A stretch of 64,000 bases of DNA, taken from contig NZ_CP010803.1 of the NCBI RefSeq assembly GCF_000960975.1, positions 434,001 through 498,000 of the forward strand, written 5' to 3'. The translations under genes were made by a program, and so were the position numbers. This stretch comes from Martelella endophytica. GTDB taxonomy: Bacteria; Pseudomonadota; Alphaproteobacteria; Rhizobiales; Rhizobiaceae. Positions 31,821-41,228 of this stretch are shown piece by piece; position 1 is the first letter of the stretch, and every line of letters starts with the position of its first letter. The notes beneath the pieces were generated by a model. That model did not search any database. It was not told the DNA's origin and was given only the letters and a program-made list of their open reading frames with translations.

Positions 31821-32315
31821 TTACTCCGAAAGAAGGGCCTTGAGCCGGAAGCCCGCGATCTTCTCCACCTCTGCAGAAGCTGTCGAAAGCTCCTCGGCTG
31901 CCGCATTTTCAACGCGGCGCCTGAAGGCGGCAAGAATATCGTCCTTATTGAGCCCGGCGACCGCAATAATGAAGGGAAAACCGAACCTGTCTATATAGGC
32001 GGAATTGAGCCGCGTAAACTCTGCGTGCTCGTCCGGCGTCAGCCGGTCGAGACCGGCCCCCGCCTGCTCGCGCTTGCTGTCCTCGGTGAGGCCGCCGGCA
32101 ATCGCAAGCTTTCCGGCAAGATCGGGGTGGGCGCGCAGAACGCCGAGCCGCTCCTCTTCGCTTGCCGCCCGGAAGACGGTGCTGAGCGCCTGATGGACGC
32201 CAGAGGCGGTCAAAGGTTCATCAATCTTGCCCTGGTCCCAGGCCCTTTCCGCAATGAAAGGCGAATGCTCATAGACCCCGCCGAAACGGCTGACGAATTC
32301 ATCCCTGCTGATCAT
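31821..32315 (-). CDS. uraD: OHCU decarboxylase
   Basis: 164 residues. ISRDEFVSRFGGVYEHSPF at the start, the RAHPDLAGK motif with catalytic His near 70 and NSAYIDRFGFPFIIAV near 110 are signatures of 2-oxo-4-hydroxy-4-carboxy-5-ureidoimidazoline decarboxylase. It makes (S)-allantoin from the UraH product. It overlaps puuE by four bases. Confidence 0.96.
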   Translation of the reverse strand: MISRDEFVSRFGGVYEHSPFIAERAWDQGKIDEPLTASGVHQALSTVFRAASEEERLGVLRAHPDLAGKLAIAGGLTEDSKREQAGAGLDRLTPDEHAEFTRLNSAYIDRFGFPFIIAVAGLNKDDILAAFRRRVENAAAEELSTASAEVEKIAGFRLKALLSE

Positions 32316-33250
32316 TCCGTGGTCTCCGACGGCAGATGATGCTCATACCAGTGACGGGCGATCTCGATCCGCTTCGGGATCCAGACCCTGTCGTGGTTCT
32401 GCACATATTCGAGGAAGCGCTTGAGCGCCGCAACCCGACCCGGCTTGCCGACGAGACGGCAGTGGAGGCCGACCGACATCATCTTCGGGCTGCCATCGAG
32501 CCCTTCCTGGTAAAGCGTATCGAAGGCGTCCTTCAGATAGTTGAAGAACTGGTCGCCGGCATTGAAGCCCTGCGGCGTGGCAAAGCGCATATCGTTATTG
32601 TCGAGCGTATAGGGAATGCGCAGGAAGGGCTTGCCCTCCGGCGTGCGCACCCAATAGGGAAGGTCATCGCAATAGCTGTCGGATGAATAGAGAAAACCAC
32701 CCTCTTCCATCACCAGAGCCAGCGTATTGTCCGAAGGCTTGCCCTGGTAAAGGCCATAGGGCCGCTCGCCGGTCACTTCGGTGTGCAGGCGCACGGCCTC
32801 GCGGATATGGGCGCGCTCGGTCTCGATGTCGAAATCCTTGTATTCCAGCCATCTGAGGCCGTGGCTGGCGATTTCCCAGCCGGCTTCCTTCATCGCCGCG
32901 ACGGCTTCCGGATTGCGCGCCATGGCGAGCGTCACGCCATAAACGGTGACCGGGATATCCATACCGGTGAACAGCCGCCACAGCCGCCAGAAGCCCGCGC
33001 GAGAACCGTACTCGTAAAGCGATTCCATGTTGAGATTGCGCTGGCCGGGCCAGGCATCGGCACCAACAATTTCCGACAGCAGGCATTCCGATTGCGGGTC
33101 TCCGTCGAGAATGCAGGATTCGCCACCTTCCTCGTAGTTGACAACAAACTGCACCGCGATGCGGGCATCGCCCGGCCATTTCGGATCTGGGGCATTGCGC
33201 CCGTAGCCCACGAGATCGCGCGGATAATCACTTTTCTCGGCGTACATCAT
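32312..33250 (-). CDS. puuE: Allantoinase PuuE (polysaccharide-deacetylase-like)
   Basis: 312 residues of the metal-light PuuE type, not the amidohydrolase type of allantoinase. Typical parts are YPRDLVGYGRNAPDPKWPGD, the NYEEGGE segment near 46-52, the EIASHGLRWLEY stretch near 126-138 and YCDDLPYWV near 195. It opens allantoin to allantoate. ATGATG offers starts at 33250 and 33247; GAGGG is best spaced for the second. It is the first gene of the six-gene minus-strand purine operon. Confidence 0.95.
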   Translation of the reverse strand: MMYAEKSDYPRDLVGYGRNAPDPKWPGDARIAVQFVVNYEEGGESCILDGDPQSECLLSEIVGADAWPGQRNLNMESLYEYGSRAGFWRLWRLFTGMDIPVTVYGVTLAMARNPEAVAAMKEAGWEIASHGLRWLEYKDFDIETERAHIREAVRLHTEVTGERPYGLYQGKPSDNTLALVMEEGGFLYSSDSYCDDLPYWVRTPEGKPFLRIPYTLDNNDMRFATPQGFNAGDQFFNYLKDAFDTLYQEGLDGSPKMMSVGLHCRLVGKPGRVAALKRFLEYVQNHDRVWIPKRIEIARHWYEHHLPSETTE

Positions 33251-37716: not shown

Positions 37717-37743
37717 TCGCCTCGACGCACGTCAAGCGAACCG

Positions 37744-37770
37744 AACCCGCCGCATCGCCGGCGGGTTTTT
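37744..37770 (+). terminator. Terminator after rhlE
   Basis: CCCGCCG and CGGCGGG pair around CATCGC, followed by TTTTT, starting 28 bases after the rhlE stop. Confidence 0.85.
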
Positions 37771-38031
37771 CATTTTGGGAAGTATGCAGCTTCGCGAAAG
37801 CTGACCCCTGAGGCGCGTTCCCCTGCCCCTCCAAGCAACATCCCGCCGCTTTCTTCAGGTTGCATTCATCGCTGCACATTTATTCGGCGTTCGGCCACGG
37901 AACTGCCCGTTTTTCAGCGCGTTTTAAAACAAACAACCTGCAAAATTCGATGCAGCGCAACAAGGCATGGTCCTTGCATTACGTTTGATGTTGTATTGAT
38001 ATGCAATGATAAACACCGGGGGAAGAAGGCT
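37771..38031. other. AT-rich upstream region of the ATP-grasp module
   Basis: About 260 bases with no gene. Composition shifts to AT-rich from about 37920. It contains the palindrome GTTTTAAAAC (37921-37930) and a possible TTGCAT (37974) with TATTGA downstream, a weak promoter candidate for the ATP-grasp gene. Confidence 0.4.
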
Positions 38032-39444
38032 TTGGCATTCGACGAGATGATGACCGCGGACGGCGCGCCGCGCGAGCCCTACAAAGACTATTACGACTGG
38101 TACAGCCAGCAGGATCCTTCACTTCTCATCGCCAAATCCCGTGATGCGGAAAACATCTTCAGAAAGACCGGCATCACCTTCGCCGTCTACGGCCACGCCG
38201 ACAGTTCCGAAAAGCTGATCCCCTTCGACATCGTTCCGCGCGTGATTTCGGGCGGGGAGTGGCGCAAGCTTGCGGCCGGCATCGAACAGCGGGTTCTGGC
38301 GCTCAACGCATTCCTGAAGGATATCTACCACAAGCAGGAGATCGTGAAGGCCGGGCGTGTTCCGCGTCGGCTGATCGAGGAAAACGACGCCTTCCTGCCG
38401 CAGATGATGGGTTTCGAGCCGCCCGGCGGGGTCTACACCCACATCGTCGGCACCGACATCGTGCGCACCGGCGAAGACCAGTTTTACGTGCTGGAAGACA
38501 ACGCTCGCACACCCTCCGGCGTCAGCTACATGCTGGAAAACCGGGAAACCATGATGCAGATGTTTCCCGAGCTGTTCTACAAGAACCGGGTACGCCGCGT
38601 CGAAGACTATCCGCAGCTTCTGCGCCAGAGCCTTGCTACACTGGCCCCGCCCGGATTTTCCGGCACCCGCCCGCGCGTGGCGGTGCTGACCCCCGGTATC
38701 TACAATTCCGCCTACTATGAGCACTCCTTCCTCGCCGACATGATGGGCGTCGAACTGGTCGAGGGCTCGGATCTGCGGGTCATCGATGGCAAGGTGAAGA
38801 TGCGCACGACGCGCGGTTACGAGGCGATCGACGTGCTCTATCGCCGTGTCGACGACGACTTCCTCGACCCCCTCACCTTCCGTCCGGATTCGGCACTTGG
38901 CGTTCCCGGCATCATGGATGTCTACCGCGCCGGCGGCATCACCATCGCCAACGCGCCGGGCACCGGCATTTCCGACGACAAGGCGATCTATTCCTACATG
39001 CCTGAAATCGTCGAATTCTATACCGGCCAGAAACCGCTTCTGGAAAACGTGCCGACCTGGCGCTGTTCCGAGCCGGAGAGCCTCGCCTACGTGCTCGACA
39101 ACATCGCCGATCTCGTGGTCAAGGAAGTCCACGGCTCCGGCGGTTACGGCATGCTGGTTGGCCCGACGGCAAGCAAGAAGGAACTTGAGGATTTTACCGC
39201 CAAGCTTCGCGCCCGGCCGGCGAACTACATCGCCCAGCCGACGCTGTCGCTCTCGACCGTACCGATCCTGGTCAAGAAGGGCATCGCGCCGCGTCATGTC
39301 GATCTTCGTCCCTATGTTCTCGTTTCCGATCGCGTCCGCATCATGCCCGGCGGACTGACGCGCGTGGCGCTGAAGGAAGGCTCGCTGGTGGTCAACTCCA
39401 GCCAGGGCGGCGGAACCAAGGATACATGGGTGCTGGAGGACTGA
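38032..39444 (+). CDS. Circularly permuted ATP-grasp protein (type 2)
   Basis: 470 residues from a TTG at 38032, chosen because GGGGGAAG lies seven bases upstream; no ATG fits. The protein spans the DUF404/DUF407 circularly permuted ATP-grasp domain: GIEQRVLALNAFLKDIYH near 80, the ATP-binding YVLEDNARTPSGVSYMLENR near 155-175, and VVKEVHGSGGYGMLVGP near 365-382. ATP-grasp enzymes ligate a carboxylate to an amine, so a peptide- or amide-forming role is predicted. It is the first gene of a conserved trio with Alpha-E and transglutaminase; the stop overlaps the next start by one base. Confidence 0.88.
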   Translation: MAFDEMMTADGAPREPYKDYYDWYSQQDPSLLIAKSRDAENIFRKTGITFAVYGHADSSEKLIPFDIVPRVISGGEWRKLAAGIEQRVLALNAFLKDIYHKQEIVKAGRVPRRLIEENDAFLPQMMGFEPPGGVYTHIVGTDIVRTGEDQFYVLEDNARTPSGVSYMLENRETMMQMFPELFYKNRVRRVEDYPQLLRQSLATLAPPGFSGTRPRVAVLTPGIYNSAYYEHSFLADMMGVELVEGSDLRVIDGKVKMRTTRGYEAIDVLYRRVDDDFLDPLTFRPDSALGVPGIMDVYRAGGITIANAPGTGISDDKAIYSYMPEIVEFYTGQKPLLENVPTWRCSEPESLAYVLDNIADLVVKEVHGSGGYGMLVGPTASKKELEDFTAKLRARPANYIAQPTLSLSTVPILVKKGIAPRHVDLRPYVLVSDRVRIMPGGLTRVALKEGSLVVNSSQGGGTKDTWVLED

Positions 39445-40385
39445 TGATGCTCGGAAAAACCGCAAACGGCCTCTACTGGATGTTCCGCTACATCGAACGC
39501 GCGGAAAACATCGCCCGCCTGATCGATGCCGGCCAGCGCGTGTCGCTGACCCGCTCCAAGGGCGCCGACGACTGGGACGGCATCCTGCAGAGCGCCGGCG
39601 TTCACGAGGCCTTCTACGAAATCTACAGCAAGCTGACGGCTGACAGCGCCATCGACTTTTTGCTGCGCGACCGCCGCAATCCGTCAAGCGTGATGTCCTG
39701 CATCGAATCCGGCCGCAACAATGCCCGCCTGGTGCGCACGGCACTGACGCGCGAGACCTGGGAGGCGACGAACGAGTGCTGGATCGAGGCCCGCGCCATG
39801 CTGGCCGCGAAGCTGAAGCCAGCGGACCTCCCCAAGGCCATCGACTCGGTCAAGCGCTGCACGGCGCTCATCCGCGGCACTTTCCACGGTTCGATGCTCC
39901 GGAACGAGATCTACAATTTCGCCCATATCGGCACCTTCGTGGAACGCGCCGACAATACCAGCCGCATTCTCGACGTGAAATACTACGTGCTGCTGCCTTC
40001 GGTGCATCATGTCGGCACGTCGCTCGACAATCTGCAGTGGGAATCGATCCTGCGTTCGGTCTCTGCCCACCGCGCCTATGGCTGGGTGCACAACGGCGAA
40101 TACAAACCGAGCCAGATCGCCGACTTCCTGATCCTCGACGTGCAGCTACCGCGCTCGCTCGCCTATTCCTACGAGAAGATCGTCCTCAATCTCGACTATC
40201 TCGCCGCTGATTATGGCGAACGGCTTGAGGCCCACGAGACGGCGCATGCGATCCGCAACACGCTCCGCAGCCAGAAGATCAAGACCATCATGGACAACGG
40301 CCTGCACCAGTTCCTCGAGGACTTCGTCAGCCGCAACAACCAGCTCAGCCAGCAGATCAGCGAGGGTTACCGCTTCTACGCGTGA
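39444..40385 (+). CDS. Alpha-E domain protein
   Basis: 313 residues from the ATG at 39444. MLGKTANGLYWMFRYIERAENIARLIDAG at the start with repeated all-helical E-rich segments (ARTALTRETWEATNECW; FVERADNTSRILDVKYY) defines the Alpha-E family (formerly DUF403). It is always found next to circularly permuted ATP-grasp genes and probably forms a complex with them. No enzyme activity is known. It overlaps the ATP-grasp stop by one base and precedes the transglutaminase by 24 bases. Confidence 0.9.
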   Translation: MMLGKTANGLYWMFRYIERAENIARLIDAGQRVSLTRSKGADDWDGILQSAGVHEAFYEIYSKLTADSAIDFLLRDRRNPSSVMSCIESGRNNARLVRTALTRETWEATNECWIEARAMLAAKLKPADLPKAIDSVKRCTALIRGTFHGSMLRNEIYNFAHIGTFVERADNTSRILDVKYYVLLPSVHHVGTSLDNLQWESILRSVSAHRAYGWVHNGEYKPSQIADFLILDVQLPRSLAYSYEKIVLNLDYLAADYGERLEAHETAHAIRNTLRSQKIKTIMDNGLHQFLEDFVSRNNQLSQQISEGYRFYA

Positions 40386-40409
40386 GAAGCGGTCAGAGGG
40401 AAAAGCACG

Positions 40410-41228
40410 ATGCTCCTGAACATCCACCATGTGACTGAATACAGCTATGACGAGCCGGTCTCGTTCTCGCTGCAACGCCTGAGACTGACGCCGCTCGACA
40501 GCAATGGCCAGACCGTGCGCGACTGGACGGTAACGATCGAGGGCGCCAAGAGCGAGGTCAGCTACACCGACCACTTCCACAACCTCGTCCGCCTCGTTTC
40601 GGTCGAAGGCGAACACAAGACCGTTCGACTGATTGCCGCCGGCACTGTGGAAACCCGCGACACTGACGGCATCTACGGCCCGGCAGCACCGGATATTCCG
40701 CTCTGGCTGTTCCTGCGCACGACGCCGCTGACCACGCCGGGCGAAGCAATCACCGCCCTGGTCGCAAAGCTCGAAGGCGACTCGGAGCTGGCGAAACTGC
40801 ACCACCTGATGGAGGTGCTGCACAAGACGATGACGTTCAAGCCCGGCGCGACCTCGATTGCGACGACTGCCGACGATGCGCTGACGGCCGAATCCGGCGT
40901 GTGCCAGGACTATGCCCACATCGTCATCGCCTGCGCGCGCGCCATGAAGGTGCCGGCGCGCTATGTCTCCGGCTATCTCTACATGGAAGAGGCCGAGGCC
41001 CAGACGGCGAGCCACGCCTGGGCGGAGTGCTATCTCGAAGGCCTGGGCTGGGTCGGCTTCGACGCCGCCAACAAGGTCTGCCCGGATGAGCGCTATGTCC
41101 GCGTCGCTTCCGGCCTCGACTACAAGGACGCCGCCCCCGTCTCCGGCATGACCATCGGCGGCGGCAAGGAAAGCCTCGAGGTCAAGCTCAAGGTGGCCGG
41201 CCAGAGCCAGTCGCAGAGCCAGAGCTGA
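40410..41228 (+). CDS. Transglutaminase-like protein of the ATP-grasp module
   Basis: 272 residues, cytoplasmic. An N-terminal beta domain (MLLNIHHVTEYSYDEPVSFS) precedes a transglutaminase core with Cys in ESGVCQDYAH (about 167), His in ASHAWAECYL (about 199) and Asp in VGFDAANK (about 214). The family can hydrolyse or cross-link amide bonds, so in this trio it may cut or edit the product of the ATP-grasp enzyme. The C-terminus ends in a QS repeat (QSQSQSQS). In many alphaproteobacteria a proteasome-type peptidase gene follows; here it is replaced by a convergent oxidoreductase gene. Confidence 0.88.
   Translation: MLLNIHHVTEYSYDEPVSFSLQRLRLTPLDSNGQTVRDWTVTIEGAKSEVSYTDHFHNLVRLVSVEGEHKTVRLIAAGTVETRDTDGIYGPAAPDIPLWLFLRTTPLTTPGEAITALVAKLEGDSELAKLHHLMEVLHKTMTFKPGATSIATTADDALTAESGVCQDYAHIVIACARAMKVPARYVSGYLYMEEAEAQTASHAWAECYLEGLGWVGFDAANKVCPDERYVRVASGLDYKDAAPVSGMTIGGGKESLEVKLKVAGQSQSQSQS

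Follow-up and report, generated by a model that had tools for sequence, protein, structure and literature searches.

The stretch of DNA analysed here (the window) comprises 64,000 nucleotides of Martelella endophytica (RefSeq assembly GCF_000960975.1, contig NZ_CP010803.1, positions 434,001 to 498,000 of the forward strand) and contains a trio of genes encoding a circularly permuted ATP-grasp ligase, an all-helical Alpha-E protein and a transglutaminase-like cysteine enzyme (TGase), the last of which ends in a glutamine-rich C-terminal tail. This tail is the most informative feature of the trio and the best lead to what the system modifies: it is conserved, it is mobile between proteins of the operon and, within the literature searched, it is new. 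Tentatively, we favour the reading that the trio would be a nitrogen-stress amide-ligation system with its own glutamine-rich C-terminal tail serving as a flexible acyl carrier or substrate encoded within the system itself. The features on which this rests are the following.

38032..39444, + strand: ligase, circularly permuted ATP-grasp (CP_ATPgrasp_2) with a TTG start; PF14403 549.5 bits, PF04174 480.9 bits.
39426..40385 (likely start 39444 or 39447), + strand: Alpha-E all-helical protein; PF04168 303 bits.
40410..41228, + strand: TGase; PF08379 81.4 bits, PF01841 76.8 bits.
41202..41225, + strand: C-terminal (QS)4 tail of the TGase, from the alignment and the low-confidence end of the model.

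The three linked genes lie where an earlier note, made from the sequence alone, had placed them, with their Pfam domains confirmed and the catalytic triad of the TGase (Cys165, His202 and Asp218) intact. The TTG start that it gave for the ligase also held, since a strong ribosome-binding sequence (GGGGGAAGAAGG) precedes the codon at 38032 and the TTG is conserved in every one of the 13 upstream regions shown for Martelella, that of the window among them. The QS-repeat end of the TGase reads GQSQSQSQS, and the suggestion that it could be an amine acceptor stands as a possibility.

Conservation of the tail was assessed in 98 loci of the window's phylum, sampled from 37 of 44 other matching genomes and, as 60 further loci, from 59 of 145 matching genomes, hand-picked for spread. 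Glutamine was found within the last two residues in 69/80 of the trio TGases and at the very end in 50/80, compared with 12/216 and 6/216, respectively, for the other proteins of the same stretches. A multi-phylum set of 80 loci (the best 80 of 593, found with an alignment headed by a Bacteroidota sequence), in 56 of which a TGase was called, gave 42/56 TGases with glutamine within the last two residues and 39/56 with a terminal glutamine, compared with 3/80 ligases and 9/67 Alpha-E proteins of those loci. Runs of glutamine (QQQQQQQ, for example) are found at the end of many Bacteroidota TGases and of several from Acidobacteriota and Chloroflexota. No paralogous TGase had glutamine within its last two residues (0/36, as 0/12 and 0/24), nor did any fused ATP-grasp-Alpha-E paralogue among the best 120 have a glutamine end; the protein lists used were the best 120 of 7052 and the best 120 of 7873. 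Most of the closest named proteins come from Martelella.

Within the tail, Gln269 and Gln271 were invariant across 71 aligned sequences, the window's included. The last 10 residues of the best 120 TGase homologues held 373 Q-x-Q pairs, where x is S, G, T, N, M or another residue, whereas shuffling the tails gave 156 (standard deviation (s.d.) 8); for QQ pairs the count was 20, against 176 (s.d. 9) after shuffling. Because these homologues are related, it is the contrast that matters and not its size. The tail codons are mixed, which favours a constraint at the protein level over repeat slippage, and AlphaFold confidence for the tail was very low. The tail is not mentioned in the available parts of the two papers on this type of operon (PMC5666114, PMC6376114), and no description of it was found in the open-access literature searched.

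The position of the tail is not fixed to one gene. Alpha-E carried a glutamine-rich tail in 13 of the 178 loci (Chlorobiota 3, Verrucomicrobiota 4, Nitrospirota 1, Planctomycetota 1 and Pseudomonadota 4), and in these loci the TGase was either not called beside the ligase (five), lacked a terminal glutamine (six) or had a lone one (two); the Alpha-E counts omit L071, L122 and L151, where the open reading frame start was called too far upstream for the distance filter, and L155, where Alpha-E was not found. When at least five glutamines in the last 20 residues were required, the 132 loci with both genes comprised 45 with the tail on the TGase, 8 with it on Alpha-E and 79 with it on neither, and no locus had it on both (Fisher p 0.05). 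On the ligase tree the state of the Alpha-E tail requires 10 changes (gains or losses), and at least seven of these are forced by well-supported branches. A glutamine-rich end was scored on the ligase in two loci (L103 and L118). The catalytic cysteine was lost in six TGases, of which five were missing the C-terminal tail and the sixth (L135) kept QQQQ; two of the tail-less ones (L097 and L105) have an internal glutamine-rich stretch immediately ahead of the active-site helix that they have lost. Six plasmid loci, which stand outside the 178, included glutamine-rich ends in the TGases of Sinorhizobium meliloti and Hymenobacter, a glutamine-rich stretch close to the C-terminus of the ATP-grasp protein of Tsukamurella, and TGases with no glutamine in the last two residues in Burkholderia multivorans, Deinococcus, Paenibacillus and Tsukamurella.

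The gene families and their order (CP-ATP-grasp, Alpha-E, Bact_transglu_N/Transglut_core) are those of the CP-ATP-grasp / Alpha-E / TGase amidoligase system and, judged by sequence, the trio belongs to this widespread system as a member without Anbu. The gene set has been called the 'Anbu operon', which the papers credit to Iyer 2009, and Anbu structures together with one ATP assay have been published (PMC5666114, PMC6376114). The published background here and below comes from the available parts of these two papers and of PMC5491218, PMC7801951, PMC3325844, PMC8050072, PMC3597751, PMC7764037, PMC8407117, PMC12239564 and PMC7947786. According to these sources the system is known, is widespread over many bacterial phyla and has been under discussion since 2009, with no proven product. 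The earlier note agrees with them on the product but went too far in calling this an undescribed system. Its reading was partly supported overall; what it missed was the wide conservation of the tail, its placement on Alpha-E and a promoter region that looks nitrogen-controlled.

The adjacent Anbu peptidase that defines the strict Anbu operon was not found at the trio, and genome-wide no Anbu match was obtained either here or for 12 further genomes of the genus, whilst 24 of the 61 genomes searched had one; the single PF00227 protein of the own genome resembles HslV by eye. Anbu was found in 61 of the 98 sampled stretches, on the opposite strand in 5 of those. One clade of 11 loci in this sample, Martelella included, lacked it (SH-like approximate likelihood ratio test (SH-aLRT) 99, in a tree of 98 ligases), with Anbu-bearing relatives just outside this clade. 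The absence would most simply be explained by one loss. That the proteasome-type peptidase is missing, as the earlier note had it, is true, but the special status given to this is overstated, being shared by the whole clade. The own genome also holds a second, paralogous set (L107, C1:239.9-246.7 kb) encoding a DUF2126-TGase of 1116 aa, a fused ATP-grasp-Alpha-E protein of 811 aa and a TGase of 300 aa. At a third site (L108, C1:2666.7-2668.6 kb) two TGases are convergent with a large GH94 protein, presumably cyclic-glucan-synthase-like.

The closest PDB entry to the ligase was 3n6x (E 9.5e-190). A model of the paralogous fusion matched 3n6x, the glutathione, glutathionylspermidine and trypanothione synthetases and YgiC/YjfC, and matched LysX/ArgX weakly; through this model the nearest solved folds after 3n6x were the glutathione, homoglutathione, glutathionylspermidine and trypanothione synthetases. 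The ligase is thus linked, via 3n6x and the paralogous-fusion model, to the ATP-grasp fold of the glutathionylspermidine synthetase (GspS) type, and its domain search showed CP_ATPgrasp domains only, with no GspS amidase domain in the protein. Among the fold matches, the enzymes whose product is known join an amine to the carboxylate of a peptide or protein as an amide. For the TGase, the model matched 3isr clearly and TglA, eukaryotic transglutaminases and pseudomurein endoisopeptidases weakly, so that hydrolysis, deamidation and transfer would all be chemically reasonable for this enzyme.

Set beside known systems, the trio has three of the four genes of the Anbu operon with order and domains alike, and differs in having Anbu neither in the operon nor in the genome and in a glutamine tail extended to (QS)4. 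The corresponding gene sets of Burkholderia cenocepacia (I35_5080-83) and Pseudomonas putida (PP_2685-2688) are linked to nitrogen limitation in the published work; unlike the Martelella trio, the former has a large TGase and the latter has Anbu. The paralogous set L107 of the own genome has the same three domain families, but with a fused ligase, 31-32% identity and no glutamine at the ends. Escherichia coli GspS combines an ATP-grasp synthetase fold with a thiol amidase, as the trio does, whereas the trio enzymes are in separate genes, with a TGase fold where GspS has its amidase domain. The C-terminal ends of LysW and Pup are glutamate or glutamine targets, and ATP-grasp ligases act on the C-terminal glutamate of LysW. 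Published sources describe the RimK ATP-grasp enzyme as acting on the C-terminal glutamate of ribosomal protein S6, and also describe PafA/Dop. LysX/ArgX-LysW, RimK-S6 and Pup-PafA/Dop thus share a ligase acting on the C-terminal glutamate or glutamine of a protein, as proposed for the trio, whereas the proposed carrier of the trio would be the enzyme's own tail.

Nitrogen limitation would most likely induce the trio, with the following element, 54-69 bases upstream of the ligase start codon, as a possible sigma54-type promoter.

37963..37978, + strand: sigma54-like -24/-12 element AGGCATG-GTCC-TTGCA, a sequence match to GG-N10-GC that is not proof of use.

The pattern AGGCAYG-N4-TTGCA is present in 13/13 Martelella upstream regions, and good conservation extends into the sequence that follows it (17/34 columns). 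A sigma54 score of at least 14 bits was reached by 29 of 104 upstream regions, and the controls gave 0 (reversed), 1 (opposite strand) and 0 (complemented), although six of the 29 are from Martelella and relatives are non-independent; 43/104 outscored their own shuffles at p 0.02. The weights were set by hand from the sigma54 consensus, which is printed in PMC5491218. RpoN and NtrC are both encoded in the own genome, which has seven exact sites of the sigma54 pattern, five of them clustered at C1:3.394-3.412 Mb. One of the clustered sites precedes a nifH-like gene (by eye), which suggests that nif genes are present in this Martelella. A sigma54-like sequence (AGGCACGCTCCTTGCA) was also observed upstream of the ligase in Burkholderia multivorans (L171), with a TGCACC-N5-GGTGCG palindrome, which we take to be NtrC-like, further upstream. 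The orthologues of B. cenocepacia are reported to be 6- to 9-fold lower in an ntrC mutant and are listed among the common sigma54 and NtrC targets. For P. putida, published data have PP_2686-2688 up 11-15-fold in nitrogen limitation and a PP_2688 promoter reporter responding 3.7-fold, with the Anbu gene PP_2685 changing 1.1-fold in the same study as PP_2686-2688 and 11-fold in another.

Starting from what the analysis established, namely the gene anatomy, the conservation and relocation of the tail, its specificity to trio TGases and the enrichment of the promoter element, we infer the tail as substrate, the order of steps, the role of Alpha-E and the nitrogen trigger in Martelella. The TGase would act on the tail glutamines, by deamidation to glutamate or by transfer to an amine; the ATP-grasp enzyme would spend ATP to build an amide on the tail carboxylate; Alpha-E would keep the partners together; and Anbu, in loci having one, would be a trimming hydrolase. 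The tail would most likely be a carrier or substrate because ligase and TGase chemistry is found together with a flexible glutamine tail kept on one or another operon protein. Doubtful, but deserving serious weight, is the bolder proposal that the mobile tail is a fourth component, a Pup- or LysW-like conjugation arm that would be loaded by the ATP-grasp enzyme and processed by the TGase in nitrogen starvation with no separate carrier, its bearer being whichever operon protein has the tail: the TGase, Alpha-E or, rarely, the ligase.

Several observations weigh against the carrier or substrate role or its nitrogen trigger. By set criteria the tail is lacking in 19 of 136 TGase-bearing loci, and 37 further loci, some at contig ends, have neither a tail nor a nearby called TGase; one paralogous TGase has three glutamines in its last 12 residues (1/24). 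Tails on the TGase and on Alpha-E exclude each other only to a moderate degree (Fisher p 0.009, 0.011, 0.05 and 0.06 by threshold, with loci non-independent), and a catalytically intact TGase is not a strict requirement for the tail, since Cys-less TGases keep QQQQ or an internal glutamine-rich stretch. In published experiments free glutamine or glutamate did not stimulate the Yersinia ATP-grasp protein to release phosphate, and a pull-down with Anbu as bait gave no specific complex; in the published co-expression a C-terminal FLAG tag was placed on the TGase, and as this would hide the C-terminal end the negative co-expression results may not hold for the native enzyme. As to the promoter, close genera are without the -24 GG of the element, an overlapping sigma70-type reading (TTGCAT-N17-TGATAT) can be made by eye at the Martelella element, where a strict sigma70 scan gave nothing, and a P. 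putida rpoN mutant is reported still to raise the ligase, the next gene and the TGase 14-20-fold.

The chief rival to the carrier or substrate role, though an unlikely one, is that the tail is a docking peptide which sits in a groove of Alpha-E, the ATP-grasp enzyme or Anbu and holds the complex whilst remaining chemically unchanged. A short C-terminal segment of low model confidence, found on either of two proteins and retained by the Cys-less TGase of L135, would suit such a role, but the tails vary from a single Q to QSQSQSQS to QQQQQQQQ where usual docking motifs are stricter in sequence, and Martelella, having no Anbu, cannot use it as the dock. Rather unlikely, too, is the proposal that the trio makes a free small peptide or amine conjugate, with a GspS-like synthetase and a TGase-fold amidase, the tail being a side feature for solubility or TGase auto-inhibition. 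The glutathione-type synthetases that follow 3n6x among the nearest ligase folds, and the pairing of ligase and thiol amidase as in GspS, speak for it; a side feature would however hardly be kept over eight phyla on one protein or other, and be missing from paralogous TGases yet found on Alpha-E instead. That the glutamine ends are an artefact of composition or phylogeny, due to drift or slipping repeats and magnified by the relatedness of the genomes, is very improbable: although the loci are related and repeats are able to slip, this is strongly disfavoured by the background (12/216) and paralogue (0/36) controls from the same kind of genomes, by the mixed codons and by the spread over phyla.

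The trio looks like a three-gene transcription unit of its own, given a hairpin upstream, between the trio and its upstream neighbour, an RhlE-type helicase gene, and a convergent oxidoreductase gene downstream.

37743..37768, + strand: intrinsic-terminator-like hairpin 3' of the RhlE-type helicase gene, with a 10-pair stem and a T-rich tail.

The hairpin is weak evidence by itself since the scanned region had six terminator-like sites where shuffles gave 3.9 (s.d. 2.2). The Alpha-E start is more likely at 39444 or 39447, where it abuts or overlaps the ligase stop, because the called open reading frames of several homologues begin at residue 8 of the window's; 24 bases separate Alpha-E from the TGase. 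A longer ligase open reading frame from 37996 was considered unnecessary, given the TTG at 38032 and its ribosome-binding sequence. Inspection by eye showed no signal peptides in the trio proteins, in keeping with the cytoplasmic location given in the earlier note. Genes for purine nitrogen salvage, OHCU decarboxylase-like and allantoinase-like (PuuE), were noted by eye near the trio (window 31821-33250, - strand).

For a widespread system without a proven product, the tail shows experimenters where to look, and together with the link to nitrogen limitation it narrows an open-ended search to directed mass spectrometry on one short peptide. If the mobile tail is indeed a fourth component, the trio would be a protein-tail amide-carrier system without a separate carrier protein.
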